Source: Haloplanus natans DSM 17983 (GTDB taxonomy: Archaea > Halobacteriota > Halobacteria > Halobacteriales > Haloferacaceae). Taken from it: a stretch of 64,000 nucleotides of DNA. The stretch covers positions 124,001 through 188,000 of the forward strand of contig NZ_KE386573.1 in the NCBI RefSeq assembly GCF_000427685.1, read 5' to 3'. Below, one piece after another: positions 6,973-56,024 of the stretch (its first letter is position 1; each line of letters opens with the position of its first letter). A program made the translations under genes and the position numbers. The notes beneath the pieces were generated by a model. That model made no database searches, had not been told where the DNA came from, and saw nothing but the letters and a program-made list of their open reading frames with translations.

Positions 6973-7368
6973 TTAGGAGTTGGTATCGTCGTCGTCGCCG
7001 TCCGCGTCGAGCATCGCCTGCGTCATCTCGCGGGCCTCCGCGAGGACGCGCCGAACGTCGCCGTCGGCGGTGTCGGTCGGCCGTCGTCCGTGCGCGTGAT
7101 TGTGGTCGCCGGCCGCCCCCTCCGGCACCTCGCCGGCCGCCCCCTCCGGCACCCGCTCCTCGAACATCTCGTCGTAGTCGGCGTCCTTGGCGTACTCGAC
7201 GACGACCGGCGCCAGTTCGTCGACGCCCGCCTCGCCCCACCCCGGCGCGTGTTCGTCCAGCCACGTCTCGTGGGCGTCGCCGTGGAGCATGGCGGTGAAA
7301 GCGAGGTGGTTCGCGAGGTGGTCGGCGTCGCGCTGGGGCGTCGCACAGACCGGGCAGGCGTATCCCAT
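6973..7368 (-). CDS. Haloarchaeal zinc-finger-like protein (DUF5810-like)
   Basis: This 131-residue protein starts MGYACPVCATPQ and continues with DADHLANHLAFTAML. The CPVC pair plus two histidines (HLANH) form a C2H2-like metal site at residues about 5-24. The remainder is acidic. A histidine-bearing stretch near residue 95 (GDHNHAHG) could also bind metal. The start at 7368 is preferred to one three codons upstream because the zinc motif then follows immediately. The coding sequence contains two adjacent 24-bp copies encoding VPEGAAGE/VPEGAAGD. Function unknown; it pairs with the next DUF gene. Confidence 0.75.
   Translation of the reverse strand: MGYACPVCATPQRDADHLANHLAFTAMLHGDAHETWLDEHAPGWGEAGVDELAPVVVEYAKDADYDEMFEERVPEGAAGEVPEGAAGDHNHAHGRRPTDTADGDVRRVLAEAREMTQAMLDADGDDDDTNS
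7106..7153 (-). repeat. Two-copy 24-bp in-frame tandem repeat in the DUF5810-like gene
   Basis: Two adjacent 24-bp units differ at only two positions (they begin gtcgcc and ctcgcc). They encode the consecutive octapeptides VPEGAAGE and VPEGAAGD. The repeat keeps the frame and lies in a probable linker, so it looks like recent slippage. Confidence 0.75.
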
Positions 7369-7394
7369 GGTCGGCACACGGGGCCTGAGAGGTA

Positions 7395-7916
7395 TTAGGG
7401 TTCGGCCTCGCCGTCGCCGTCACGCCACTCGGCCACGCCCAGTACCATCACGAGGGCGTCCTCGCCGTCCCGGTAGTACCGTGGGACGCGCCGGGCGGTT
7501 TCGAAGCCAACGTCGCGGTACAGCGTTCGGGCGGCGTCGTTGCTCTCGCGCACCTCCAGTTTCACTACCTCCGCGCCGTCGACTTCGAGGGTGACGAGCG
7601 AACGGACGAGCAACGACCGGCCGATGCCGCGATGGCGGGCCGCGTCGGCGACGGCGAGGTCCTTCACGTGTCCGATGTCGCGCCCGAAGTTGGGCGTCAC
7701 GTCGCCGACGACGTAGCCGACCACTGCGTCCGGCCCGTCGTGTTCCACGCTCGACTCCACCGCGACCAGAAACCCCGGTTCGTCGAGAAACCGCTCGAAG
7801 GCCGTGTAGGGCCACGGCTGATCGAAGGCAGCGCGTTCGATGTCGACGATCGATCCTAGATCCGACTGCTCGGCGCCGCGGATGGTCACGCCGGCTGGCG
7901 TCGTGGGAGCGGCCAC
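7395..7916 (-). CDS. GNAT acetyltransferase, RimI-like
   Basis: This protein of about 173 residues is a GNAT-fold acetyltransferase. The segments IRGAEQSDLGSIVDIERAAF and PWPYTAFERFL resemble RimI/ArdI-type Nalpha-acetyltransferases. The acetyl-CoA-binding loop is DAARHRGIGRSLL, and ESNDAARTLYRDVGFE is the conserved C-terminal signature of RimI proteins. The start is taken as GTG at 7916 (VAAPTTPAGVTIRG). A TTG at 7943 would add nine residues. The archaeal homologues acetylate N-termini of proteins; the exact target is unknown. Confidence 0.85.
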   Translation of the reverse strand: MAAPTTPAGVTIRGAEQSDLGSIVDIERAAFDQPWPYTAFERFLDEPGFLVAVESSVEHDGPDAVVGYVVGDVTPNFGRDIGHVKDLAVADAARHRGIGRSLLVRSLVTLEVDGAEVVKLEVRESNDAARTLYRDVGFETARRVPRYYRDGEDALVMVLGVAEWRDGDGEAEP

Positions 7917-7957
7917 GCGAGACGGTACGACCGACGGCAGCAAAATACCTCGGACGG

Positions 7958-9136
7958 TCAGGGCGCGGTCCGCTCGGGGGCGCGGGGCGATACGGTCTCC
8001 GCGTCCGTTCTGGGCGGTCGATCGGTGGCGCTCGCCGATTCGAGCCGTAGCCGGAACACGGTGCCGTCGGGGCCGGTGGTTTCGAGGCGTAACCGTCCGC
8101 CGTACAGTTCGACGAGATGCTGGCTCAAAAACAGGCCGTAGCCGTGATCGCCGGATTCCGGGGGGTCGAACAGCGTCGCCCGCGCCGCGTCGGGGATACC
8201 CGGTCCGTCGTCACACACTCGGACGACGACGATGTCGTCGTCGGCCCGGATGCCGATCCGGACGGTCGGGTCGTCGCAGTGCAGGGTCGCGTTCTCGACG
8301 AGGTTGACGAACACCCGGTCGAGCAGGTCGCCGGCGGCAGCGTACACCGGACCGGACGCGTCCACGGTCACCGTCGCGCGCCCCTCGTCGACGTTCACCC
8401 GCTCGGCCGTCGCCTCGGCGATGGCGGTCACGTCCGTCGGCTGGATGCGCAGGTTCTCGCCGTCGGCGTTCATGATCGCCCGGATCGAGGAGACGAACGT
8501 CCCCACCTCGCTACTCGACCGGCCGATGATCCGCGCCCACTCGTTGGCTTCCCCGTTCGTCCGTGCCGCCAGCAGGTCGGCGTAGCCGTCGATCTTGTTG
8601 ATCTCGTTGAGCACCTCGTGGCGGAGATACTGGTTCAGATACTCCAGGCGCTGTTGCTCGTGTTTCCGGCGACGCGCCTCGACGGCCGCCCGTTCCTGTG
8701 CCCGACCGCGGTTGATCGACCGGGCTTCGACGACGCCCGTCACGGTACCCATCGACGCACCGAACCCGGTCGCCATCAACAGCAACAGCAGGTGTTCGCC
8801 CCGGTCGTACTGTGGCTCGAGGACGAACAGGGCCGTCGCCACGGCGATCAGAAAGAGTACGGCGACCCCGACAACCCAGACGACGACCCGGTAGTGGAGC
8901 GCCCGCTCCACGTCGGACTCCGACATCCAGACGAGGGAGCCAAAGAGGACGACGAGCGGCACGCCCAACAGGACGACTTCGAGGTAGCCGTCCACCTCCG
9001 CGTCCGCGATTTCCCGGGCGTCGTTGTAATGATAGAAAAAGAGCAGGTACGCACTCAGAAAGCCCGTCCACAGCACCCACATCCCGACACGTCCCGGATC
9101 GCGTCGCAGCCACCGACCGGGGAAGCGAGCACTCAT
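7958..9136 (-). CDS. Membrane-bound sensor histidine kinase
   Basis: This 392-residue protein has four predicted membrane helices in its first 150 residues (for example MWVLWTGFLSAYLLFFY, VVLLGVPLVVLFGSLVW and VVWVVGVAVLFLIAVATALF). A short coiled region (ERAAVEARRRKHEQQRLEY) leads into the phosphoacceptor box YLRHEVLNEINKIDGYADL. The HATPase domain follows, with an N box (NLVENATLH), G1 (DDGPGIP) and G2 (GDHGYGLFLSQHLV). It autophosphorylates on the histidine of LRHEV. No response regulator is adjacent, which is common for haloarchaeal kinases. The signal is unknown. Confidence 0.92.
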   Translation of the reverse strand: MSARFPGRWLRRDPGRVGMWVLWTGFLSAYLLFFYHYNDAREIADAEVDGYLEVVLLGVPLVVLFGSLVWMSESDVERALHYRVVVWVVGVAVLFLIAVATALFVLEPQYDRGEHLLLLLMATGFGASMGTVTGVVEARSINRGRAQERAAVEARRRKHEQQRLEYLNQYLRHEVLNEINKIDGYADLLAARTNGEANEWARIIGRSSSEVGTFVSSIRAIMNADGENLRIQPTDVTAIAEATAERVNVDEGRATVTVDASGPVYAAAGDLLDRVFVNLVENATLHCDDPTVRIGIRADDDIVVVRVCDDGPGIPDAARATLFDPPESGDHGYGLFLSQHLVELYGGRLRLETTGPDGTVFRLRLESASATDRPPRTDAETVSPRAPERTAP

Positions 9137-9261
9137 CGGGGTGACCGAGTCGGCGGCCGGTAAAGAACTCTCGTATGTGCTCTATATACCGCTCCCGTGC
9201 TGGTCTCTCGATTGATACTCGGGGAGTGAGGTTTTAGTTCGGAGTTGCGAAGCGACGACTA

Positions 9262-9840
9262 ATGGCTGCACAGCGAGCGGAACGGGGCGCGCGCGGTATC
9301 GATCCGCTCCACGTGGTCGGCGTCGGCGTACTGAGCGGGCTGTTGTTCACCGTTGGCCTTCTGGTCGCCGAGGCGCCGGGCGAGTTGGCCCTGGACGTGG
9401 ATCTGAAGCCGTTCTTTCTCCCCTACCTCCTGATCGCGGTCGTCCGATACGGCTTCCTGACGCTCTCGGCGGGCCTGGGCGCCGCGATCGGTGAAGGGGC
9501 CCTCGATGTCGCGGAGGGCTACGAACTCGACGATCCCGTCGGCTTCATCGGCTACGTCGTCGGGTTCACGCTTTTCGGCTGGTATCTCCATCGCGTCGCT
9601 AACGATCCGACCGCGCGGCGCGCACAGACCGTCGCCGCGATCCTCGGCGCGTTCGGACAGGCCGTCTTCGAGGGGCTGGCGTTTCTGGTGTTCGCGACCG
9701 ATGCCAGTCCGCTCGATGCCGGCGCGAGCGTCGTGGGCAATACGGTCACACACGGCGTGGTACTCGGCGCGATTCCGCTCGTCGTCCTGTACCCGTGGCT
9801 CGAACCGCTAGTTGAAAAAGAATCGGGCGAGAGCGACTGA
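9262..9840 (+). CDS. Polytopic membrane protein, unknown
   Basis: This 192-residue protein has about five hydrophobic segments (VVGVGVLSGLLFTVGLLVA, FFLPYLLIAVVRYGFLTLSAGL, FIGYVVGFTLFGWYL, VAAILGAFGQAVFEGLAFLVF, VVLGAIPLVVLYPWL). Charged loops carry conserved-looking phrases such as AIGEGALDVAEGYELDD. The overall look is reminiscent of small substrate-binding membrane subunits, but I cannot support a family assignment. An AT-rich ggttttagt about 30 bp upstream of the ATG could be its TATA box. It is transcribed toward the second aconitase gene, whose stop lies only 6 bp away. Confidence 0.75.
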   Translation: MAAQRAERGARGIDPLHVVGVGVLSGLLFTVGLLVAEAPGELALDVDLKPFFLPYLLIAVVRYGFLTLSAGLGAAIGEGALDVAEGYELDDPVGFIGYVVGFTLFGWYLHRVANDPTARRAQTVAAILGAFGQAVFEGLAFLVFATDASPLDAGASVVGNTVTHGVVLGAIPLVVLYPWLEPLVEKESGESD

Positions 9841-9846
9841 GTGCGG

Positions 9847-11823
9847 TCAGTCGTCGGCGGGCGTCGCGCCGCCGGCACCCTCTTCGTACTGCTGTTTCGT
9901 GAGGGTGAGTTTGCCGCCGGCCGCGAGGATTTCACGCTCGCGTTCGGAGGCGTCGAACTGGGCGGTCGCCTCCCAGTCGTCGTTGACGCGGATGGTGAAC
10001 TCCTCCGCGCCCGACGCCACCGCGTCGGCCACGTCGTCGACGACCTCGATGTGGTCGCCCTGTTCGATGCGGTCGTAGGTCGCCTCGTCGATGGTCAGGG
10101 GTAGGAGGCCGAAGTTGAACAGGTTCGCCTTGTGGATGCGGGCGAAAGACTGCGCGAGGACGGCCTCGACGCCGAGATACATCGGACACATCGCCGCGTG
10201 TTCGCGGGAGGAGCCCTGGCCGTAGTTCTCGCCGGCCACGAGGATGCCGTGATCGGAGGCCCTGGCGCGCTCCGCGAACGTCTCGTCGACACGCGAGAGC
10301 GTGAACTCCGAGAGTTTGTCGATGTTCGAGCGGAACTTGAGGATGTCCGAGGTGGCGGGGATGATGTGATCGGTGGTGATGTTGTCCTCCATCTTGAGGA
10401 GGGTCTCGCCGCCGATGTCGGCCCCGAGCGGGTCCTTCAGCGGCACGTCACCGATGTTCGGACCCTTGATAAGGTCGTCGTCGACCGCCTCGTCGGGTTC
10501 GATGATGTCGGCTTTCGAGCCGTCGTACTGGTCCGGGAGTTCGACGCCGGGTGACTCCAGATCGCCGAGTTCCTCGGCCAGATCGCGCGGATCGACGATT
10601 TCGCCGGCCAACGCCGCCGCTGCGGCCACCTGTGGCGAACAGAGGTAGACCGAGTCGTTCTCGATGCCCGACCGACCCTCGAAGTTCCGATTGAAAGTCC
10701 GGAGGGAGACGGAGTCGGAGGCGGGGACGTGGCCGATGCCGATACAGGGGCCACACGTCGCTTCGGAGACGTTGACGCCGGCGGCCATCATCTCGGCCGT
10801 CCAGCCCTCGCGGGCGAGGAGTTCGCCGGCCTGCTTCGAGCCGGGGGCGACGATCATCTCGAGGTCCTTCTTGATTTCGCGACCCTTGAGCATCTTCGCG
10901 GCGGGGAGGATGTCCTCGTAGCCGCCGTTGGTACAGGAGCCGACGATGACCTGCTCCACGTCGGTGCCGGCAACATCGCGGACCGGCACCACGTTGTCGG
11001 GCATCGACGGACAGGAGATGAGCGGTTCGAGTTCCGAGAGGTCGACGACGATTTCGTCGGCGTACTCCGCGTCCTCGTCCGCCGAGAGTTCGACGTACTC
11101 GTCGCCGCGGCCCTGGCGTTCGAGGTACTCTTTCGTGTGCTCGTCGGTGGGGAAGATGGAGGTGGTCGCGCCGAGTTCCGTCCCCATGTTCGTGATCGTC
11201 GTTCGCTCGGGCACCGAGAGGCTCTCCACGCCGGGGCCGGTGTACTCGAACACTTTGCCGACGCCGCCCTTGACCGAGAGGCGACGCAGCATCTCGAGGA
11301 TGAGGTCCTTCGCGGACGCCCAGTCGGGGAGTTCGCCCTCCAGTCGGACGTTCACGACTTCGGGCATCTCGACGAAGTAGGGGCCGCCGCCCATCGCGAC
11401 GGCCACGTCGAGGCCACCGGCGCCGATGGCGAGTTCGCCGAGGCCGCCGGGCGTCGGCGTGTGGGAGTCCGACCCGAGCATCGTCTTGCCGGGGGCGGCG
11501 AAGTTCTCCTTGTGGACGTTGTGGCAGATGCCGTTGCCCGGGCGGGAGAAGTACGCGCCGTAGGTTCCCGCGGCCGACCGCAGGAACCGGTGGTCGTCGG
11601 TGTTTTTAAAGTCGAACTGATACGTCTGGTGATCACAGTACTGCGCGGCGAGTTCCGTCTGCACTTCGTCGAGTTCGAGCGCCTCGAACTGCAGCCAGAC
11701 CATCGTGCCGGTGGTGTCCTGTGTGAGTACCTGGTCGATCTCGATCCCGATCTCCTCGCCGGGTTCGAGATCCCCCTCGACGAGGTGGTCGTCGAGGATC
11801 TTCTCCGTGAGCGTCTGTCCCAT
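9847..11823 (-). CDS. acn: Aconitate hydratase, second paralog
   Basis: This 658-residue aconitase is colinear with the one at 1-1968 and highly similar throughout. It has DSHTPTPGG, GSCTNGGYED and CGPCIGIGH with the three cluster cysteines, and the same NYGQGSSREHAA active-site segment. The canonical CGPC motif makes this copy the more standard enzyme. It converts citrate to isocitrate in the cytoplasm. A TATA-like box (TTTATA on the minus strand) sits about 30 bp before the start codon, consistent with leaderless expression. Redundancy, differential regulation or a methylcitrate-type substrate for one copy are possible. Confidence 0.96.
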   Translation of the reverse strand: MGQTLTEKILDDHLVEGDLEPGEEIGIEIDQVLTQDTTGTMVWLQFEALELDEVQTELAAQYCDHQTYQFDFKNTDDHRFLRSAAGTYGAYFSRPGNGICHNVHKENFAAPGKTMLGSDSHTPTPGGLGELAIGAGGLDVAVAMGGGPYFVEMPEVVNVRLEGELPDWASAKDLILEMLRRLSVKGGVGKVFEYTGPGVESLSVPERTTITNMGTELGATTSIFPTDEHTKEYLERQGRGDEYVELSADEDAEYADEIVVDLSELEPLISCPSMPDNVVPVRDVAGTDVEQVIVGSCTNGGYEDILPAAKMLKGREIKKDLEMIVAPGSKQAGELLAREGWTAEMMAAGVNVSEATCGPCIGIGHVPASDSVSLRTFNRNFEGRSGIENDSVYLCSPQVAAAAALAGEIVDPRDLAEELGDLESPGVELPDQYDGSKADIIEPDEAVDDDLIKGPNIGDVPLKDPLGADIGGETLLKMEDNITTDHIIPATSDILKFRSNIDKLSEFTLSRVDETFAERARASDHGILVAGENYGQGSSREHAAMCPMYLGVEAVLAQSFARIHKANLFNFGLLPLTIDEATYDRIEQGDHIEVVDDVADAVASGAEEFTIRVNDDWEATAQFDASEREREILAAGGKLTLTKQQYEEGAGGATPADD

Positions 11824-34789: not shown

Positions 34790-35371
34790 ATGAGTTTGGA
34801 CACAGTTGCCGAGGACATTCGAGACGAGGCCCGCGCGCGTGCGGAGGAAATCCGCGAAGAAGGCGAAGCGCGCGCCGAGGAGATCATCGCCGACGCCGAG
34901 GCCGACGCGGAGTCGATCCGCGAGGACCGCGAGGCCGAGGTCGAGCGCGAGATTACACAGCGGCGTGAACAGGCGATCTCCAGCGCGAAACTCGAGGCCA
35001 AGCAGGCCCGACTGGAGGCTCGCCGCGACGCCCTGGCGGAGGTTCGCGAGGAAGTCGAGGCGGCCATCGAGGACATCGACGGCGAGCGCCGTCGCTCGCT
35101 GACCGAGACGCTCCTCGACGTGGCCGCCGAGGAGTTCGAGGACGAGGAGTCGGTTTCCGTCTACGGTCGCGCGGACGATCGAGAACTGCTCGAAGACCTG
35201 CTCGAGGCGTACGAGGGCTTCAGCGTCGCCGGGGAACACGACTGCCTCGGCGGCGTCGTCGTCGAGAGCGAGGAGTCGCGGGTCCGTGTGAACAACACCT
35301 TCGACTCCCTTCTCGAGACGGTCTGGGAGGACAACTTGAAGGAACTGAGTAACCGACTGTTCGAGCGATGA
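34790..35371 (+). CDS. atpE: A-type ATP synthase subunit E
   Basis: This 193-residue peripheral-stalk subunit has an N-terminal coiled coil of about 100 residues (ARARAEEIREEGEARAEEII, REITQRREQAISSAKLEAKQ). A globular C-terminal domain ends FDSLLETVWEDNLKELSNRLF. It begins 20 bp after atpK. The following atpC start overlaps its stop by 4 bp. Confidence 0.94.
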   Translation: MSLDTVAEDIRDEARARAEEIREEGEARAEEIIADAEADAESIREDREAEVEREITQRREQAISSAKLEAKQARLEARRDALAEVREEVEAAIEDIDGERRRSLTETLLDVAAEEFEDEESVSVYGRADDRELLEDLLEAYEGFSVAGEHDCLGGVVVESEESRVRVNNTFDSLLETVWEDNLKELSNRLFER

Positions 35372-36417
35372 GCGCGAGCCCCGGCAGTTCGAACCCGGAG
35401 TACGTCACCGCCCGTGTGCGGTCACGCCGTGCGGCGCTCTTTAGCGACGACGACTACCGGAAGCTCGTCCGCATGGGGCCGGCCGAAATCGCCCGCTTCA
35501 TGGAGGAGTCGGAGTACGAACGCGAGATCAACGCACTCGGCGCGCGCCACTCGGGGGTCGACCTCATCGAGTACGCGCTCAACCGGAACCTGGCGAAGCA
35601 TTTCAACGACCTGCTGGCGTGGGCGGACGGCCGCCTCTACGACCTGATCGCCCGCTATCTCCGAAAGTTCGACGCGTGGAACGTCAAGACGGTCCTGCGC
35701 GGGATCTACTCCGACGCGGACCGCGACGACGTGGAGACGGACCTCATCCGCGCGGGCGAACTGGACGACCGTCTGCTCGACCGCCTGCTCGATGCGGGTA
35801 CCATCGAGGAGGCCATCGACCTGCTCGACCGGACGACCTTCGGGGACCCGCTCCGTGAGGCGTTCGACGACTACGAGGACAGCGGTGTGCTCGTTCCGCT
35901 GGAGAACGCGGTCGACCGCGTGTTCTACGAACGACTCCTGTCGGGACTGGTCGTCAACGAGGCGACCGAGACGTACCGCGAGTTCCTGCAGGCGGAGATC
36001 GACTTCCGAAACGCCCGGAACGCGCTTCGCCTGGCCCGAAGCGGGGCCGACATCGACCCAGGGGAGTACTTCATCGAGGGCGGTCGGCTCTTTTCGGCGA
36101 GCGAGATGAACGCGCTGGCGTCGAGTGTGGACGAACTCGTCGCGGCGATCCGCGAGAGCACGTACGGTGACGCCCTCGACGACGCGCTGGCGGAGTTCGA
36201 ACGGGCAGACAGCCTCATCTCGTTCGAACGGGCACTCGACGCGGCACTGCTCGAATACTCGGACCGACTCGGCTTCGTCCACCCGCTGTCGGTGGCGCCG
36301 GTCATCTCCTACATCCTCGCCAAGGAGCGCGAGGTGGACAACATCCGCGCCATCGCCCGCGGTCGCGAGGCCGGTCTGTCCGAGGAGGAGATCGAGGAGG
36401 AACTGGTGATCCTATGA
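35368..36417 (+). CDS. atpC: A-type ATP synthase subunit C
   Basis: This 349-residue subunit (V-type d subunit homologue) caps the rotor ring and connects it to the central stalk. It is mainly helical, with EYVTARVRSRRAALFSDDDY near the N-terminus and HPLSVAPVISYILAKEREV, DNIRAIARGREAGLS near the C-terminus. The latter is the conserved ending of the family. It overlaps the neighbouring atpE and atpF genes by 4 bp each. Confidence 0.95.
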   Translation: MSASPGSSNPEYVTARVRSRRAALFSDDDYRKLVRMGPAEIARFMEESEYEREINALGARHSGVDLIEYALNRNLAKHFNDLLAWADGRLYDLIARYLRKFDAWNVKTVLRGIYSDADRDDVETDLIRAGELDDRLLDRLLDAGTIEEAIDLLDRTTFGDPLREAFDDYEDSGVLVPLENAVDRVFYERLLSGLVVNEATETYREFLQAEIDFRNARNALRLARSGADIDPGEYFIEGGRLFSASEMNALASSVDELVAAIRESTYGDALDDALAEFERADSLISFERALDAALLEYSDRLGFVHPLSVAPVISYILAKEREVDNIRAIARGREAGLSEEEIEEELVIL

Positions 36418-36737
36418 GCCAGGAGATAGCCGTCATCGGCAGCCCGGATTTCACGACGGGCTTCCGACTCGCGGGCGTACGGAAGTTCGAGAACGTACCG
36501 GACGAGGAGAAAGAGGAGGCGCTCGACGACGCCGTCATGCGGACGCTCGACGACGACGACGTCGGCATCGTCGTGATGCACGACGATGACATGGCGTATC
36601 TCTCCCGGTCGGCCCGGGAGGCCGTCGAGGGTAGCATCGAACCGGTGCTGGTCACCCTCGGTGGCGGCGCCGGCAGCGGCGGCCTGCGCGAGCAGATCAA
36701 GCGAGCCATCGGTATCGATCTGATGGAGGAAGACTAA
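36414..36737 (+). CDS. atpF: A-type ATP synthase subunit F
   Basis: This 107-residue central-stalk subunit has a Rossmann-like fold. [20 protein letters not shown] and [20 protein letters not shown] are typical, and the sequence ends in the conserved C-terminal helix [15 protein letters not shown]. It overlaps atpC by 4 bp and ends one base before atpA. Confidence 0.94.
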
Positions 36738-36738
36738 T

Positions 36739-38508
36739 ATGAGTCAGGCAGACACGACCGTCCGAGAGGACGGCATCATCGACAGCGTGAGTGGTCCGGT
36801 CGTGACCGCCGTCGATCTCGACGCCCGAATGAACGACGTCGTCTACGTGGGCGACGAAGGGCTGATGGGCGAAGTCATCGAGATCGAAGGCGATATCACG
36901 ACCATTCAGGTGTACGAAGAGACCTCGGGCGTCGGTCCGGGCGAACCCGTCGAGAACACGGGCGACCCGCTGACCGTCGACCTCGGGCCGGGGCTGCTGG
37001 ACACCATCTACGACGGCGTCCAGCGCCCTCTCGACGTGCTCGAGAGCAAGATGAACAGCCCGTATCTCGACCGCGGGGTCGACGCGCCCGGCATCGACCT
37101 CGAAAAAGAGTGGGAGTTCACTCCCGAGGTCGAGGAGGGCAACGAGGTCGGCCGCGGCGACATCATCGGCACCGTCCCCGAGACGGTGACCATCGAGCAC
37201 AAGGTGCTCGTCCCGCCGGACGCCCTCGAGGAGGGCGAGACGGCGGAAGTCGTCTCGATCGAATCGGGCGAGTTCAACGTCGACGAGACGGTGGCCGAAC
37301 TCGACAACGGCGAGGAGATCCGGATGCGCCAGGAGTGGCCGGTACGCGAGGCGCGCCCCGCCGGCGATAAGCAGACGCCGACGGAGCCGCTCCTGACCGG
37401 CCAGCGGGTGCAGGACGGCCTGTTCCCCATCGCCAAGGGCGGTACGGCGGCGATTCCGGGGCCCTTCGGCTCCGGGAAGACCGTCACCCAACAGCAGTTG
37501 GCGAAATGGTCCGACGCGGACATCGTCGTCTACATCGGCTGTGGCGAGCGCGGTAACGAGATGACCGAGGTCATCGAGGACTTCCCGGAACTGCCCGACC
37601 CGCAGACCGGGAACCCGCTGATGGCCCGGACGACGCTCATCGCCAACACGTCGAACATGCCCGTCGCGGCACGCGAATCCTGCGTGTATACGGGCATCAC
37701 CATCGCGGAGTACTACCGCGACATGGGCTACGACGTGGCGCTGATGGCCGACTCCACCTCGCGGTGGGCGGAGGCCATGCGCGAGATCAGTTCGCGTCTG
37801 GAGGAGATGCCGGGCGAGGAGGGCTATCCCGCCTACCTCGCCGCGCGGCTCTCCCAGTTCTACGAGCGCGCGGGCTACTTCGCTAACATCAACGGCACGG
37901 AGGGCTCCATCTCGGTCGTCGGCGCCGTCTCGCCGCCGGGTGGCGACTTCTCCGAGCCGGTCACGCAGAACACGCTCCGCATCGTGAAATGCTTCTGGGC
38001 GCTCGACGCCGACCTGGCCGAACGCCGACACTTCCCCTCGATCAACTGGAACGAGTCGTACTCCCTCTACCGGGACCAGCTCGACCCGTGGTTCGAGGAG
38101 AACGTCGCGGAGGACTACGCCGAGGTCCGCCAGTGGGCGATCGACACGCTCGACGAGGAGGGCGAACTGCAGGAGATCGTCCAGCTCGTCGGCAAGGACG
38201 CGCTGCCGGAGGATCAACAGCTCACCCTCGAGATCGCGCGGTACATCCGCGAGGCGTGGCTCCAGCAGAACGCGTTCCACGACGTCGACACCTACTGCGA
38301 ACCCGACAAGACGTATCTCATCCTCACGACGATCAAGACGTTCAACGACGAAGCCTTCGACGCGCTCGAAGCGGGCGTCCCCGTCGAGGAGATCACGGCC
38401 GTCGAGGCCCTGCCGCGCATCAACCGCATCGGCGTGCAGGAGGAGTACGAGGCGTACATGGACGAGCTGAAAGACGACATCACCGAGCAGATTCGGGAGC
38501 TGTACTGA
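36739..38508 (+). CDS. atpA: A-type ATP synthase catalytic subunit A
   Basis: This 589-residue catalytic subunit has the P-loop GPFGSGKT near residue 235, preceded by the archaeal non-homologous insert region. [12 protein letters not shown] and [14 protein letters not shown] are conserved ATPase motifs. No intein interrupts the P-loop, although inteins occur there in some archaea. It forms the catalytic hexamer with AtpB. It is followed by atpB after one base. Confidence 0.97.
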
Positions 38509-38509
38509 G

Positions 38510-39919
38510 ATGAAAGAGTACAAAACGATCACCGAGATCAGCGGTCCGCTGGTGTTCGCCGAGGTCGACAAACCCATCGGCTACGACGAGATGGTGGAAA
38601 TCGAGACGGCCGACGGCGAGATTCGCCGGGGGCAGGTGCTCGAATCCGAGGACGGCCTCGTCGCCATCCAGGTGTTCGAAGGCACCTCGGGAATCGACAA
38701 GAACGCGTTCGTCCGCTTCCAGGGCGAGACGCTGAAGATGAAGCTGACCGAGGACCTCCTCGGTCGCGTCCTCTCCGGGTCGGGCGAACCCATCGACGAC
38801 GGGCCGGCGATCGAACCCGAGAAGCGCGAGGACATCGTCGGCGCGGCGATCAACCCGTACTCCCGCGAGTATCCCGAGGAGTTCATCCAGACCGGCGTCT
38901 CCGCCATCGACGGCATGAACACCCTCGTTCGCGGGCAGAAGCTCCCCATCTTCTCCGGATCGGGCCTGCCGCACAACGAACTCGCGCTCCAGATTGCGCG
39001 ACAGGCGAGTGTCCCCGAGGAAGAGGAGGGCGGTGAGGGCTCCGAGTTCGCCGTCATCTTCGGCGCGATGGGAATCACGGCCGAGGAGGCCAACGAGTTC
39101 ATGGACGACTTCGAGCGCACCGGCGCGCTAGAGCGGTCGGTCGTCTTCATGAACCTCGCGGACGACCCCGCCGTCGAGCGGACGGTCACGCCGCGGATGG
39201 CCCTGACGACCGCCGAATATCTCGCCTTCGAGAAGGATTACCACGTGCTGGTGATCCTGACGGACATGACGAACTACTGCGAGGCGCTGCGTGAGATCGG
39301 TGCCGCCCGCGAGGAGGTGCCGGGTCGTCGTGGCTACCCCGGCTACATGTACACCGACCTGGCCCAGCTCTACGAGCGCGCCGGTCGGATTCAGGGTCGT
39401 GACGGGTCGGTCACGCAGATTCCGATCCTCACCATGCCCGGCGACGACGACACGCACCCGATTCCGGACCTGACGGGTTACATCACGGAAGGACAGATCT
39501 ACGTCGACCGCGACCTCAACAGTCAGGGCGTCCAGCCCCCGGTCAACGTGCTTCCCTCCCTCTCCCGTCTGATGGACGACGGGATCGGCGAAGGCCTCAC
39601 CCGCGAGGACCACGCCGACGTCTCCGACCAGATGTACGCCGCGTACGCGGAGGGTGAGGACCTGCGCGACCTGGTGAACATCGTCGGCCGCGAGGCCCTG
39701 TCGGACCGCGACAACAAGTACCTGGACTTCGCCGACGAGTTCGAACGCGAGTTCGTCGACCAGGGCTTCGACACGAATCGCGACATCGACGAGACCCTCG
39801 ACATCGGCTGGGACCTCCTCTCGAACCTCCCGAAAGAGGAGCTCAACCGGATCGACGAGGAGCTCATCGCGGAGCACTACCGCGAGGACGCGGTCGAAGA
39901 AGAGGCGACGGCCGACTAG
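38510..39919 (+). CDS. atpB: A-type ATP synthase subunit B
   Basis: This 469-residue non-catalytic subunit lacks a classical P-loop. It has [19 protein letters not shown] at the equivalent site. Other conserved segments are [16 protein letters not shown] and [20 protein letters not shown]. It closes the eight-gene run atpHIKECFAB. The next atp gene, atpD, is 4.7 kb further on, beyond the bacteriorhodopsin genes. Confidence 0.97.
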
Positions 39920-39979
39920 CTCGGCGCCGGTTTCGGCCACCTCCTTTTTGCGACTGATCTCGCCGTTCGGGCGGACGCG

Positions 39980-39996
39980 CCCAAACTCATTTGTGG
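39980..39996 (+). promoter_or_regulatory. Possible Bat-type activating site upstream of bat
   Basis: The sequence cccaaactcatttgtgg resembles the bop activating site (11 of 15 positions against the copy at 41688). It lies about 21-37 bp before the bat start codon. The match is weak and could be chance. Confidence 0.25.
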
Positions 39997-40016
39997 CTTC
40001 GCTCCCGCTTACGGTC

Positions 40017-41687
40017 ATGACGGAAGGCCTCTCCCCCGACACCGATCCGGGCGTCGCGTCGGGGGCGGAATCGGCCGAGTCGACCGCGACGGCGGCGAGC
40101 ACCGACGCCGTCGACGAGGCGCTGAAAACGCGGACGATGGACGAGGCGCCGGTGGGCATCACCATCGCCGACGCGACGATGCCGGATATGCCGCTGGTGT
40201 ACGCCAACGCCGCCTTCGAACGGATCACGGGGTATCCGCCGGCGTACGCGGTTGGGCGTAACTGCCGGTTTCTACAGGGCGAGGCGACCCGGGAGGAACC
40301 GGTGGCGAAGATGCGCGAAGCCATCGAGAACGAGGCGGCGACGACGGTCGAACTCCGCAACTACCGGCGGAACGGCGACCTGTTCTGGAACGAGGTGACC
40401 ATCGCGCCGCTCCGCGACGACGAGGGGCGTCTCACCCACTACGTCGGGTTCCAGCAGGAGGTGACCCGCCGCAAGCGAGCGGAGCAAGCGGCGGCCCGCC
40501 GGTCGGCCCGGGTCGAACAGGAGCGGGCGGCCCAGGAACTGCTGTTGGAGCGACTCGACGGCGTCGTCGCCGAGGTGTCGAGCGCGGTGGCGGAGGCCCG
40601 GTCGCGGTCGGATCTCGAACGGAGCGTCGTCGACGGGTTGGCGGCGACGTACGCCGGCGCGTGGATCGGGTCGTACGAACCCGCAGCCGAGGCGGTGATT
40701 CGGCGGGCCGCCGCGGGGTGGCCCGGCGACCACGGGGAGGGGACGGCCGACGGGTCGATCCCCGTCGACGGCGACCACGACGACATCCTCGAAACGGCCG
40801 TCGCCCGGGCCATCACCGACCGTCGGGTGACGATCCGGGCGTGTGACGACGGGACCTTGCCACCGACGGCCGTCGCCGCGGTGCCGCTTCACTACGGCGA
40901 CGCGCTCTACGGCGTCGTCGGGGTGTACACCGAGAACAACAGCGAGTTCGATGAACACGAACGCGCCGTCCTGACGGCGTTGGGACGGACGGTCGCGACG
41001 GGGCTCAACACCCTCGAGAGCCAGCGGACGCTTCGTGGCGAGGAGACCATCGAACTGCAGTTCACCGTCATGCGACACCCGCTGGTCGATCTGTCCGGCG
41101 CGCTCGACTGTCGGCTGTCGTACCGGGGAAGCGTCGCCGACCGCGACCGGCCGACGAGCCTGTTCGAACTGTCGGACGCGACGGGCGAGGCGGTTCGGGC
41201 CGCGAGCGACGGGACGCCCGTCGAGATTCACGCCGTGCTCTTCGAGGGCGAGGCGGGCTGTCTCGTCGAACTGTCGGTCACGGACGACGACTTTCGATCC
41301 CTGCTCGCGGACTACGGCGCCGAACTCCGGGACGTGCGCGTCGAGGGCGGCGTTGCACGGTTCACCGTCGAGGTGGCCCGGGAGTCGCTGGCGCGGTCGA
41401 TGACCGACGCCGTGATGGAGCGGTACGAGGGTGGGGATCTGGTCAGCTACCGACACGGCGACAGCCGCGTCGAGACCCGACAGGAGTTCGTCGCCCGCCT
41501 GCGCGAGGAGTTGACCGACCGCCAGCATGCGGCGCTGGTGCGGGCGTACACCGGCGGCTTCTTCGAGTGGCCCCACGAGGCGACGGGCGACGACCTCGCC
41601 GAGGCGATGGGGGTCTGTCGGTCGACGTTCCACGAGCACCTGCGAGCGGCCCAGCGGAAGCTCATCGGCGCTATTCTGGACCGCTAG
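40017..41687 (+). CDS. bat: Bacterioopsin transcriptional activator with LOV domain
   Basis: This 556-residue regulator has a LOV-type PAS domain at about residues 40-155. It carries GRNCRFLQGEATRE with the photoactive cysteine, ELRNYRRNGDLFWNEVTIAP and HYVGFQQEVT. These are the standard flavin-binding LOV signatures. A GAF-like domain follows (about 185-345), then a Bat-family domain, then a C-terminal HTH_10 (LTDRQHAALVRAYTGGFFEW and DDLAEAMGVCRSTFHEHLRA). It should activate bop under low oxygen and light. It is placed directly upstream of bop. A blue-light input is inferred from the LOV motif. Confidence 0.95.
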   Translation: MTEGLSPDTDPGVASGAESAESTATAASTDAVDEALKTRTMDEAPVGITIADATMPDMPLVYANAAFERITGYPPAYAVGRNCRFLQGEATREEPVAKMREAIENEAATTVELRNYRRNGDLFWNEVTIAPLRDDEGRLTHYVGFQQEVTRRKRAEQAAARRSARVEQERAAQELLLERLDGVVAEVSSAVAEARSRSDLERSVVDGLAATYAGAWIGSYEPAAEAVIRRAAAGWPGDHGEGTADGSIPVDGDHDDILETAVARAITDRRVTIRACDDGTLPPTAVAAVPLHYGDALYGVVGVYTENNSEFDEHERAVLTALGRTVATGLNTLESQRTLRGEETIELQFTVMRHPLVDLSGALDCRLSYRGSVADRDRPTSLFELSDATGEAVRAASDGTPVEIHAVLFEGEAGCLVELSVTDDDFRSLLADYGAELRDVRVEGGVARFTVEVARESLARSMTDAVMERYEGGDLVSYRHGDSRVETRQEFVARLREELTDRQHAALVRAYTGGFFEWPHEATGDDLAEAMGVCRSTFHEHLRAAQRKLIGAILDR

Positions 41688-41702
41688 CCAAACTAGTTGG
41701 GG
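41688..41702 (+). promoter_or_regulatory. bop upstream activating sequence (Bat site)
   Basis: The sequence ccaaactagttgggg begins at the base after the bat stop codon. It contains the core ACTAGTT with flanking CC and GG, matching the Halobacterium bop UAS consensus (ACC, ACTAGTT, GG). It lies 42-56 bp before the bop ATG, the same spacing as reported for Halobacterium. Bat is expected to bind it. Confidence 0.8.
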
Positions 41703-41743
41703 ACGGCGCTTAGGCCGATCGCCCGTCAAATATTGCCTGCATT

Positions 41744-42493
41744 ATGCCACAACCTGGTAGCGAAGGAATTTGGCTGTGGATCGGCACGCTCGGCATGTTC
41801 CTGGGGATGTTGTACTTCATCGCTAGGGGCTGGGGCGAAACTGACGAACGGCGACAGGAGTTCTACATCGTCACCATATTCATCACCGCCATCGCGTTCG
41901 TGAACTATCTCGCGATGGCGCTTGGATTCGGGTTGACGATGGTGACGGTCGGTGGCGAGGAGCTACCGATCTACTGGGCCCGGTACACGGACTGGTTTTT
42001 CACCACGCCGTTGCTGTTGATCGACCTCGGCTTGCTGGCCGGGGCGACCCGGAACGAGCTGTCGTCGCTCGTCGGCCTGGATATGCTGATGATCGGGACG
42101 GGCGTCGTGGCGACGCTCTCGGCCGGTCCCGGCGTGCTCACCGAGGGCGCGCGGCGACTGGTCTGGTGGGGCGTCTCGACCGGCTTCCTGCTCGTCCTGC
42201 TGTACATGCTGTACGGCTCGCTCGACGAAAAGGCAAGCCGACTCTCGGGTGACGCGGCGTCGACGTTCAGCACCTTGCGGACGCTGATCGTCGTCGTCTG
42301 GCTCGTCTACCCGGTGTGGTGGATCGTCGGCACCGAGGGCCTCGGGGTCATCTCGCTGTACATCGAGACGGCCGGGTTCATGGTGCTCGACCTGGTGGCG
42401 AAGGTCGGCTTCGGTATCATCCTGCTGTCGAGCCGCGAAGTGCTCGACGCCGCCGGCACGACGTCGCCGACGGCCGAACCGGCCGACGACTGA
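41744..42493 (+). CDS. bop: Bacteriorhodopsin
   Basis: This 249-residue retinal protein has seven helices. The retinal Schiff-base lysine is in [11 protein letters not shown]. The proton acceptor and donor positions are both Asp: [20 protein letters not shown] matches D85 and D96 of Halobacterium bacteriorhodopsin, so it should pump protons outward. The release-group glutamates fit [14 protein letters not shown]. It is preceded by bat and a Bat activating site. It is followed by genes that make its retinal. Proton export would feed the ATP synthase genes around it. Confidence 0.97.
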
Positions 42494-42677
42494 TCGGGAG
42501 TATCGGGAGTCTTCAGAGGTCCCCGCCGCCGCGGTGGCGGCACTCGGCGCGCCGCGCTCGACGCCGGCGGCCGGACGGGATCACCAGCCGGGATTCCCGT
42601 TCGCGATAACGGGTCCCGGTGGATTTTAGTAACGGACGACGAACCTGCGCTCGACCCCGCGACGACAACAGATACCG

Positions 42678-43475
42678 ATGACCGGACCAACGTACCTGCA
42701 GTTCCACCTCGCCTTCCTGCTCCCGGCCGCGATGCTCATGATCGCCACGGCGTTCGTGAGTCGGTCGCGGATGAGCGCCGCCGTCCGCCCCCTCGGCGTC
42801 GGGCGGACGTACTGGACGGGCGTCGCCGTCATCACCGCCGTCGCGCTGGCGTACACGATACCCTGGGACAACTACCTCATCGCCCGAGGTGTCTGGTGGT
42901 ACGGCGACGGGAGCACGCTCGCCAACCTCGGCCACGCGCCGATCGGGGAGTACCTCTTCATCCTCGTCCAGCCCTGGCTGACGGCGCTCTGGCTCTCCCA
43001 TCTCTCGCTCCCGAGCGAGTGGCCGACGGTCGCCCACCCGATCCGGTCGCGGGTGGCCGCGACGGCGCTCGCCGTCGGCCTCGGCGTCGCCGGCTGGCTC
43101 ATGCTCGGTACCGACGCCACGTTCTATCTCGGGGCGATCACCGCGTGGGCGGCGCCGGTGCTCGCGCTCCAGTGGGCCGTGGGGGCGCCACAGCTCTGGG
43201 CACGGCGGCGACTCGTCGCGCTCGGGACGCTCGTCCCCACGACGTACCTCTGTGTCGCCGACCGGATCGCCATCGAGTACGGCATCTGGATCCTCTCGGA
43301 GCAGTACACGACGGGGCTCACCGTCGCTGGCCTCCCCGTCGAGGAGGCGACGTTTTTCCTCGTGACGAACCTCTTTGTCGTGCAGGGACTCGTCCTCTAC
43401 CGATGGGTGCTCGACCGGTGGACGGTCGACGAACCGGACGTGGTGCCGAAGGGCGCCGATCCGGACACGGCGTAG
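42678..43475 (+). CDS. crtY: Lycopene beta-cyclase (CrtYcd fusion type)
   Basis: This 265-residue membrane protein consists of two homologous CrtYc/CrtYd-type halves with about seven helices. Conserved signatures are PWDNYLIARGVWWYGDG in the first half and YGIWILSEQYTTGLTVAGLP, VEEATFFLVTNLFV in the second. It converts lycopene to beta-carotene, the precursor of retinal. It is followed by brp with no gap. A 184-bp gap separates it from bop, so it may have its own promoter. Confidence 0.93.
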   Translation: MTGPTYLQFHLAFLLPAAMLMIATAFVSRSRMSAAVRPLGVGRTYWTGVAVITAVALAYTIPWDNYLIARGVWWYGDGSTLANLGHAPIGEYLFILVQPWLTALWLSHLSLPSEWPTVAHPIRSRVAATALAVGLGVAGWLMLGTDATFYLGAITAWAAPVLALQWAVGAPQLWARRRLVALGTLVPTTYLCVADRIAIEYGIWILSEQYTTGLTVAGLPVEEATFFLVTNLFVVQGLVLYRWVLDRWTVDEPDVVPKGADPDTA

Positions 43476-44564
43476 ATGGGTCGAACCGCCCGCGGGACGG
43501 CGACGAGCGGCCGCGACGCCGCCCCCGTCGTCGGGGCCGACCCCGAACTGGCGACGCTCGTGCGCGCCGTCGGCTGTCGCCCCGCGTGGCTCACCGTCGC
43601 CGCCGTCGGGCTGGGATCGGTCGTCGTGACGGTGACCGGTCTCGCTCCCGACCTCCCGCTGTGGGTTCGGTATCTGCCCTTGGCGGCGAGTCTCCTCCTG
43701 TTCGGTCTCCCGCACGGTGCCGTGGACCACCTCGCGCCGACCCGCGCCGCTGGCCGGCCGACCACGCTTCGATCGATGGCGGTCGTCGGCCTCGTCTACC
43801 TCACACTCGGTGGCGCGTACGCGGCGCTGTGGGTCGTCGCGCCCGTCGCGTCGGCGGCGTTGTTCGTCGCGCTGACCTGGCTTCACTGGGGGCAAGGTGA
43901 TCTGTACGCGCTCGACGCGCTGGGGAGTTCACATCTCGATAGCGCGGGCGTGCGCGCGAGCACGGTACTGGTCCGGGGTGGGCTGCCGATGCTCGTCCCG
44001 CTCCTGCGGTATCCCGAGCGATACCGGGCCGTCGTCGACGCGTGGGTGGCGCTGTTCGGGCGGGACCTGACCGCGGCATGGCTCGTCGCCCCCGATACCC
44101 GTCTGGCGCTGTGTGCGGGTTTTGCGGCGCTGACGGTCGGCACGCTCGCCGCGGGCTACCGCGCCGGCGACGCGGGCTGGCGACTCGACGCCGCCGAGAC
44201 GCTTCTGCTCTGGGCGTACTTCCTCGTCGTTCCGCCGCTCGTCGCCGTCGGCGTCTACTTTTGTGTCTGGCATTCGCTCCGGCACGTCGGACGGCTGATG
44301 GGCGTCGACGGCGGCGCCCGGGCGGCGTTCCGGGACCGGGGGACGCTCGCGGCGCTGCTCCGAACGGGCGCGGACGCGACGCCGCTGACCGCCGTTTCGG
44401 TCCTCGTGATCGGGGGCGTCGCCGTCGTCGCCGGCGTCGACACCGCGCCGCGGGTGCTGGCGGCGCTGTATCTCGTCTTCATCGCCGTGTTGACCCTGCC
44501 CCACGTCGCGATCGTGACGTGGATGGACCGAGTCGAGGGGGCGGGGCTGGGACGGAAACAGTAA
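43476..44564 (+). CDS. brp: Brp/Blh-family beta-carotene 15,15'-dioxygenase
   Basis: This 362-residue membrane protein belongs to the Brp/Blh family, which cleaves beta-carotene to retinal. The conserved histidines occur in [34 protein letters not shown] and [14 protein letters not shown], consistent with iron ligands. It has about ten membrane segments. Its start directly follows the crtY stop, so the two are co-transcribed. It completes the bop-retinal cluster. Confidence 0.92.
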
Positions 44565-44598
44565 AAGGATAAGAGGCTCGGTCCACAACCCTCCGGCA

Positions 44599-45282
44599 AT
44601 GGCCGAGGACGTCAAACCGACCCGCAAGAACCTCATGGCGATCGAGGATCGGATCGAACTCTCCGAGCGGGGGCACGACACGCTGGAACAGAAACGCGAC
44701 GGCCTCATCATGGAGTTCATGGACATCCTGGATCAGGCCCAGGACATCCGTGCGGACCTCGACGACAACTACCGGACGGCTCAGCGCAAGATCAACATGG
44801 CGCGGGCGATGGAGGGCGACGTGGCCGTCCGCGGCGCCGCCGCCGCGCTCAAGGAGCATCCGGAGATCACCACCCAGTCGAAAAACATCATGGGTGTGGT
44901 CGTCCCGCAGATCGAGTCCTCCCGGGTCCGGAAGAGCCTCGATCAGCGCGGCTACGGCCTGCTCGGCTCCTCCGGCCGGATCGACGAGGCCGCCGACGCC
45001 TACGAGGAACTTCTCGAATCGATCATCCTCGCCGCCGAGGTGGAGACGGCGATGAAGAAGATGCTGACCGAGATCGAGACGACCAAGCGCCGCGTCAACG
45101 CCCTCGAGTTCAAGCTCCTCCCCGACCTCAACGAGAACAAGGAGTACATCGAGCAGAAACTGGAGGAACAGGAGCGCGAGGAGATCTTCCGACTGAAGAA
45201 GATCAAGGCGAAAAAGGAAGAAGAGGAGAAGGCGGAAGCCGAAGCCGAGCGCGAAGCGGAAGTCGCCACCGCCGACGACTAG
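44599..45282 (+). CDS. atpD: A-type ATP synthase subunit D
   Basis: This 227-residue central-stalk subunit is largely two long helices. It has the conserved [20 protein letters not shown] start and [15 protein letters not shown] near residue 175. The C-terminal tail is strongly charged ([14 protein letters not shown]). It is normally encoded next to atpB, but here bat, bop, crtY and brp intervene. A TATA-like agtaaaaggat lies about 30 bp upstream, so it may have its own promoter. Confidence 0.95.
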
Positions 45283-54620: not shown

Positions 54621-56024
54621 ATGGGACTCAGCGACTCCCTGGCGAACTACTTCGGATTCGAGGAACACGGCACGACGCTCCGGACGGAGGCGCTCGCGGG
54701 ACTCACCACCTTCCTCACGATGTCGTACATCGTCGTGGTGAACCCGAGTATCCTCGCCGGGATTCCGGGCGAGAAACCGGGCATCGTCGTGTCGGGGTAC
54801 GGCCCCGGTGAGGTACAGTCGATGCTCGCCGTCGTCACCATCATCGCGGCGGCGGTGGCGACGCTCATCATGGCACTGTACGCGAACCGGCCGTTCGGAC
54901 AGGCACCCGGGCTCGGCCTGAACGCCTTCTTCGCGTTCACCGTCGTCGGCGCACTCGGCATCCCGTGGCAGACGGCGCTCGCCGCCGTCGTCGTCGAGGG
55001 GATCATCTTCATCGTGCTGACGGCCGTCGGGGCCCGCGAGTACATCATCCGGGCGTTTCCGGAACCGGTCAAGTTCGCCGTCGGCACCGGTATCGGCCTG
55101 TTTCTGGCGATCATCGGGCTGCAGGCCATGGGCATCGTCGTCGACGATCCGGCGACGCTGATCACGCTCGGCGCCGTCGCCTCCGATCCGGTCGCTATCG
55201 TCTCCGTCGTTGGCCTCCTCTTTACTTTCGCGCTCTATGCCCGTGGCATCCGTGGATCGATCATCGTCGGCATCCTCGCCACGACGGCGCTTGGCTGGGG
55301 GGTCGTCGAGGCGGGCCTCGTGAGCGGCGAGGCGGCCAACAGCCTCGTCGCCGGTGCCCCCGGCGCCACCTACGACATCACGCCCCTCGCCGGCGCCTTC
55401 GTCACCGGCGTCGCCGACATCGAGGCGTTCACCTTCGCGCTCGTCGTGTTCACCTTCTTTTTCGTCGACTTCTTCGACACCGCGGGGACGCTCACCGGCG
55501 TCTCCCAGATCGCGGGCTTTCTCGACGAGGACGGGAACCTCCCCGACATCGACAGGCCGCTGATGGCCGACGCGGTCGGCACCACGGTCGGTGGGATGCT
55601 CGGCACCTCGACCGTGACGACCTACATCGAGTCGGCCTCCGGCGTCGAGGAGGGTGGCCGGACGGGTATGACCGCCCTCGTCGTTGCCCTGCTCTTTCTC
55701 GCGTCGCTGGCGGTCGTCCCGCTCGCGGCCGCCATCCCGCTGTACGCCTCCCATATCGCTCTCGTCGTCATCGGCGTCGTCATGCTCGGCAACGTCGTCG
55801 ACATCGCGTGGGACGACCTGAGTTACGCGATTCCGGCCGGCATGACCATCCTCGTAATGCCCCTGACTTACTCCATCGCGACGGGCATCGCGGCGGGCAT
55901 CGTCACCTACCCCATCGTGAAGGCCGCACGCGGCGAGTGGGACGACGTGCGCCTCGGTCACTGGGTCCTCGCCGGCGCGTTCGTCTTCTACTACGTCGTG
56001 CGGACGAACACGCTGGCGGCGTAG
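54621..56024 (+). CDS. NCS2-family nucleobase permease (AzgA-like)
   Basis: This 467-residue permease has about twelve helices. The signatures TLRTEALAGLTTFLTMSYI and NPSILAGIPG at the N-terminus and GQAPGLGLNAFFAFTVV are typical of AzgA-like hypoxanthine/guanine/adenine transporters. FFFVDFFDTAGTLTGVSQIA (helix 8) and GTSTVTTYIESASGVEEGGR (helix 10) carry the substrate-binding residues. It probably imports purines or related bases. Confidence 0.92.
   Translation: MGLSDSLANYFGFEEHGTTLRTEALAGLTTFLTMSYIVVVNPSILAGIPGEKPGIVVSGYGPGEVQSMLAVVTIIAAAVATLIMALYANRPFGQAPGLGLNAFFAFTVVGALGIPWQTALAAVVVEGIIFIVLTAVGAREYIIRAFPEPVKFAVGTGIGLFLAIIGLQAMGIVVDDPATLITLGAVASDPVAIVSVVGLLFTFALYARGIRGSIIVGILATTALGWGVVEAGLVSGEAANSLVAGAPGATYDITPLAGAFVTGVADIEAFTFALVVFTFFFVDFFDTAGTLTGVSQIAGFLDEDGNLPDIDRPLMADAVGTTVGGMLGTSTVTTYIESASGVEEGGRTGMTALVVALLFLASLAVVPLAAAIPLYASHIALVVIGVVMLGNVVDIAWDDLSYAIPAGMTILVMPLTYSIATGIAAGIVTYPIVKAARGEWDDVRLGHWVLAGAFVFYYVVRTNTLAA

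Follow-up and report, generated by a model that had tools for sequence, protein, structure and literature searches.

A canonical LOV domain with a predicted photoactive cysteine in the Bat regulator of a haloarchaeal bat-bop locus

The bat gene of Haloplanus natans DSM 17983 that precedes a bacteriorhodopsin gene (bop) encodes a protein whose N-terminal domain is, by every test applied to its sequence and predicted fold, a canonical LOV domain. This Bat probably acts as a one-component receptor for blue light that activates transcription of the adjacent bop. The DNA analyzed (hereafter the window) is a stretch of 64,000 nucleotides, for which an earlier note had proposed a LOV photosensor at 40130–40480, recognized by three amino acid strings. 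All three were found in frame within a 556-aa ORF, and the proposed span is a good fit to the position of the LOV domain (Table 1). That this is a LOV domain with a (predicted) photoactive cysteine has strong support from its sequence, its conservation and the fold predicted for it.

Table 1. Features of the bat-bop locus (window positions) and of the second bat-bop locus of the same genome (positions within that locus).
Feature	Position	Strand	Basis or remark
bat, 556-aa LOV-GAF-BAT-HTH_10 one-component regulator	40017..41687	+	ORF and domain search
LOV domain (PAS_9, aa 45-150)	40149..40466	+	Pfam, 1.4e-20
GRNCRFLQG	40254-40280	+	in frame in bat
TGC codon, predicted flavin-adduct cysteine C83 (AsLOV2 C450)	40263..40265	+	alignment
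ELRNYRRNGDLFWNE	40350-40394	+	in frame in bat
HYVGFQQEVT	40437-40466	+	in frame in bat
Single long helix from LOV to GAF (aa 150-193; J-alpha / signalling helix)	40464..40595	+	predicted
GAF_2 (aa 196-330 of Bat)	40602..41006	+	Pfam
BAT domain (PF15915; aa 343-492 of Bat)	41043..41492	+	Pfam
Putative HTH_10 DNA-binding domain (aa 499-550 of Bat)	41511..41666	+	Pfam
bop-type UAS palindrome CCAAACTAGTTGGG, directly after bat stop codon	41688..41701	+	motif scan; -56 from bop start codon
bop, bacteriorhodopsin, 56 bp downstream of bat	41744..42493	+	D85/T89/D96, K216
Lycopene cyclase (CrtY/CarR type)	42678..43475	+	domain/family search
brp/blh, beta-carotene 15,15'-dioxygenase (retinal synthesis)	43476..44564	+	domain/family search
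Second locus (L218, G000:C7:500500-520400), bop	7345-8220	-	
Second locus (L218), bat	8357-10765	+	

In an alignment with AsLOV2, residues N82, C83, R84, Q87, N115, N125 and Q146 of Bat correspond to N449, C450, R451, Q454, N482, N492 and Q513, respectively. The GxNCRFLQ motif with its adduct cysteine and the flavin contacts N115, N125 and Q146 are thus present, and all six diagnostic flavin residues accompany C83. Conservation is higher in the flavin-contact columns than elsewhere in the domain (entropy 0.63 vs 1.24, permutation p 0.002), and a chance occurrence of the LOV motifs is, judged by the sequence, excluded. The top NCBIfam match of Bat was the LOV part of YtvA (2.9e-41); with 141.6 bits against a curated whole-protein cut-off of 250, Bat is not a member of the YtvA family (NF052652), the LOV part alone being matched. 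The top phmmer matches in the PDB were LOV proteins (6hmj_A, 3.5e-35; 9vf7_A, 1.4e-33), and the nearest sequences belong to an RNA-binding LOV receptor (6hmj), a Meiothermus LOV domain and phototropin LOV domains. This Bat has the LOV core, the signature residues and the predicted fold in common with YtvA and other LOV photoreceptors (NF052652, 9vf7, 6hmj, phototropin LOV1), whose output domains are different.

Structural comparison to LOV domains, one of the checks that the earlier note had set, was made on a predicted model. When AlphaFold was run on the isolated LOV domain (43 sequences, mean pLDDT 84, model without flavin), the 50 best PDB fold matches were all LOV structures, with TM up to 0.94 by target length. 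A full-length AlphaFold model was set aside, as its N-terminal LOV part had poor confidence and gave loose fold matches. An HMM score by itself was not accepted as evidence of photochemistry, since Bats devoid of the cysteine match LOV models equally well.

The start codon of bat is the ATG at 40017, the TTG at 39948 being only a mechanical ORF start. Four domains (PAS, GAF, BAT and HTH_10) each scored above the Pfam cut-off, which is the domain set of the Bat family; of these, GAF and HTH_10 had been named correctly in the earlier note, but the BAT domain had been overlooked. The distance between LOV and GAF is 65, 70 or 72 aa in almost every member of the family (single alignment), and this near-fixed spacing is no more than suggestive of rigid coupling. 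Among the closest known systems is Bat of Halobacterium salinarum, a known bop activator: PAS/LOV-like, GAF, BAT and HTH_10 domains, a UAS and a nearby bacteriorhodopsin gene occur in both. Unlike the present Bat, which has the cysteine and no receiver domain, H. salinarum Bat has a histidine (GANHRFLQG) and, at its N-terminus, a receiver-like domain of weak score.

By its D85-T89-D96 motif and K216 the bop product is a predicted canonical proton pump, and the order bat-bop-crtY-brp appears to group pump, regulator and retinal pathway together. These four genes are located inside an A-type ATP synthase gene cluster (window 35368–45282, same strand), with atpB (38510–39919) and atpD (44599–45282) on either side. 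The same two genes flank the bat-bop module in 34/75 Cys-type loci from many genera, and a bop gene adjoining H+-ATPase genes was reported earlier for Haloarcula (PMC1885257).

The UAS palindrome is the sole exact match in the 3.8-Mb genome to a pattern in which any base is allowed at one more position. In most Cys-type bat-bop loci a palindrome CCNAACTAGTTNGG is found at about -56 of bop, and usually 0–1% of shuffles equal it. The consensus used for the scan was built from the site in the window and from what we take to be the UAS of H. salinarum; what counts as independent evidence is that the position is constant from locus to locus. One-mismatch matches were no commoner genome-wide than those of a reversed control pattern and are no evidence by themselves; one of them lies 106 bases upstream of the second bop gene. 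Other weak UAS-like sites, including the one at window position 54642, were rejected as being at chance level.

The residue at the LOV cysteine was then compared with the nearest rhodopsin gene in 126 distinct full-length Bat-type proteins, obtained from 307 fetched loci. Cysteine was present in 75/75 distinct Bats adjoining a bacteriorhodopsin of this locus's type. In the H. salinarum Bat clade histidine was found in 11/11 proteins, nine of which have an H. salinarum-type bacteriorhodopsin gene within 4 kb; for the other two no rhodopsin gene was present within 4 kb in the fetched stretch. The assembly that we take to be H. salinarum (its bacterio-opsin is 100% identical to the query sequence used for the H. 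salinarum protein) carries bat and bop on two separate contigs. Proline occupies the position in all seven Bats of Halorubrum-type loci with an archaerhodopsin-like pump, and Bats adjoining halorhodopsin have Pro (4), Ala (1), His (1) or Cys (1). Bat-family genes adjoin halorhodopsin genes (TS motif) at loci L224, L227, L229, L231, L232, L234 and L235. The His, Pro and Ala forms keep the remaining flavin contacts. Part of the earlier interpretation has to be narrowed: the proposed blue-light control cannot be carried over to Bat in general, as the best-studied Bat, that of H. salinarum, has His for Cys, and Bat is not universally a LOV sensor.

An unrooted IQ-TREE phylogeny of the Bats, computed with the trait column excluded, supported the His clade (100/100) and its Cys-bearing sisters (100/97). 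Five changes of state are enough to explain the residues on it, compared with 22.7 in shuffles. The Bat of the window, having neither the His nor the receiver domain of the H. salinarum-type clade, was placed outside it. Cysteine may be the ancestral state; this is suggested by its presence in outside LOV domains and not by the tree. Two observations concern individual groups. In a Halosimplex-like group (loci L073, L060, L078, L077, L061, L056, L087, L141 and L142) the cysteine is kept and the position of R451, a flavin phosphate contact, is Asn, Asp or Ser, a replacement that might alter flavin affinity. In Halolamina pelagica, bat (L080, 7835–9939) is split into two overlapping frames, as are its crtY and brp neighbours, which probably reflects sequencing errors in the draft genome.

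The genome of the window carries a second pair, consisting of a bacteriorhodopsin gene closest to the H. salinarum protein (bop2, C7:507871-508566) and, beside it, bat2 (C7:509693-511261), whose product has GANHRFLQG, i.e. His at the LOV cysteine. The LOV domains of the two Bats are 55% identical. Cys- and His-type Bats also occur together in three other genomes (G001, G005 and G167) and, by motif, in G311 and G176. An N-terminal receiver domain is present in the relatives of the bat2 product and in all Cys-less (H/P/A) Bats and absent in 32/32 Bats of the window Bat's own clade, which leaves LOV and GAF as inputs there. Of the receiver-less Bats, 54/55 have the cysteine; a link between cysteine loss and presence of the receiver was rejected as not significant after allowing for relatedness (only three independent pairs). 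Three more rhodopsin genes are found in this genome (G000:C7:362550-363206, 96561-97241 and 2681430-2681990), one with a halorhodopsin-like T-S-A motif and two with D-T-F and D-T-Y, the latter two probably encoding sensory rhodopsins.

Direct blue-light control of bop by Bat is likely, and is favoured by the gene order, the conserved bop-type UAS at -56 and the cysteine in every Bat of this locus type. In the proposed mechanism FMN would be bound in the LOV pocket and, on absorbing blue light, would form an adduct between C83 and flavin C4a. The signal would pass through Q146, which is conserved, and along the long helix to the GAF and DNA-binding domains, and dimerized HTH_10 domains would bind the UAS and raise bop transcription. 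Only the sequence features are shown; that flavin is bound, the photochemistry, the contact with DNA and the direction of the response are inferred. Oxygen or redox input would probably enter by way of the GAF domain or through the redox state of the flavin itself, combining light with low oxygen. In H. salinarum-type Bats, including the bat2 product, the change from Cys to His would remove the adduct step, and such proteins more likely read the flavin redox state, with light causing at most photoreduction. Two results from other systems qualify the role of the cysteine: bop of H. salinarum is reported to be light-induced despite His in its Bat, and so a light response need not depend on an adduct; and when the Pro of a Pro-type Bat LOV was mutated to Cys, no traditional adduct formed (PMC4682037), and so the residue by itself is no proof.

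A less probable explanation, though the strongest of the rivals, is that the LOV domain is a flavin redox or oxygen sensor like NifL or Aer, with the cysteine kept for stability or redox chemistry and little direct effect of light. Induction of bop in H. salinarum is linked to low oxygen (PMC3184054, PMC2253796), a complete pocket is retained in the Cys-less His and Pro Bats, and the Pro form shifts its conformation when its flavin is chemically reduced (PMC4682037). NifL gives weak matches to this Bat and to His-form Bats, but LOV models score far above NifL for this Bat. Moreover, a pure redox role leaves unexplained why the cysteine, which is lost in related clades, is invariant at this locus type. 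It is rather unlikely that the domain is photoactive with an output other than bop, the linkage being historical and Bat controlling other genes or itself. Such an output would fit the 24 matches to Bat-like proteins in the same genome and the many Haloarcula-type loci with bop but no Bat in the fetched 10-kb flanks, which imply that an adjacent Bat is dispensable; against it stand the conserved bat-bop adjacency, the UAS at a set distance from the start of bop in most loci and the single exact genome-wide match to the UAS motif, at 41688–41701. That bat encodes a decayed, non-functional photoreceptor, its motif kept through recent ancestry only, is very improbable: no point in its favour was found, the 556-aa frame is intact, contact columns are conserved above background in distant genera and linker lengths are nearly confined to three values. 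Blue-light activation of bop is the preferred reading. Its extension, in which one cell would have a blue-light bat-bop module (Cys adduct) and a redox/oxygen bat2-bop2 module (His), and the family would be split into light- and redox-reading members by the rhodopsin controlled, is put forward tentatively, as possible but doubtful.

Part of this picture was known. A 2014 survey (PMC4844311) listed 167 archaeal LOV proteins, and 30% of the halobacterial ones have HTH domains; as far as its accessible part goes, these LOV-HTH proteins have LOV and a C-terminal HTH as here, one arrangement resembles Bat, H. salinarum Bat is given as being without the cysteine, function was untried, and the catalogue makes no Cys/His/Pro split by rhodopsin locus. 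The LOV domain of a Pro-type Bat of the same family (BAT-LOV*) was shown in 2015 to bind flavin, to be slowly photoreduced without forming an adduct and to change shape on reduction (PMC4682037); it differs from the present Bat in having Pro for Cys and a receiver domain. The same authors describe a direct light response by Bat as suggested and not definitively established. In H. salinarum Bat activates bop, and light induction of a bop reporter requires Bat, Brz and Brb (PMC3184054). In the open-licence literature, a weak guide to novelty, no report was found of a Cys-containing bop-linked Bat, of a Cys/His/Pro division that follows the rhodopsin locus or of a genome with both forms. Already known, then, are archaeal Bat-like LOV-HTH proteins, the Cys-less H. 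salinarum Bat and the biochemistry of the Pro-type LOV; new, as far as found, is that the Cys, His and Pro forms divide by rhodopsin locus and that Cys and His Bats coexist in one genome.

Earlier work bearing on the question whether Bat senses light directly was done, as far as found, with H. salinarum Bat or the Pro-type Bat LOV, both of which are without the light-reactive cysteine that is kept by Bats at most of the bop loci surveyed. The Cys and His pair of this genome makes the question testable, as genomes in which each of the two Bats adjoins a bacteriorhodopsin gene of its own provide an internal control by which light and redox inputs can be told apart. An activator of the LOV-HTH_10 type whose target is a short palindrome would also be a candidate haloarchaeal optogenetic switch.
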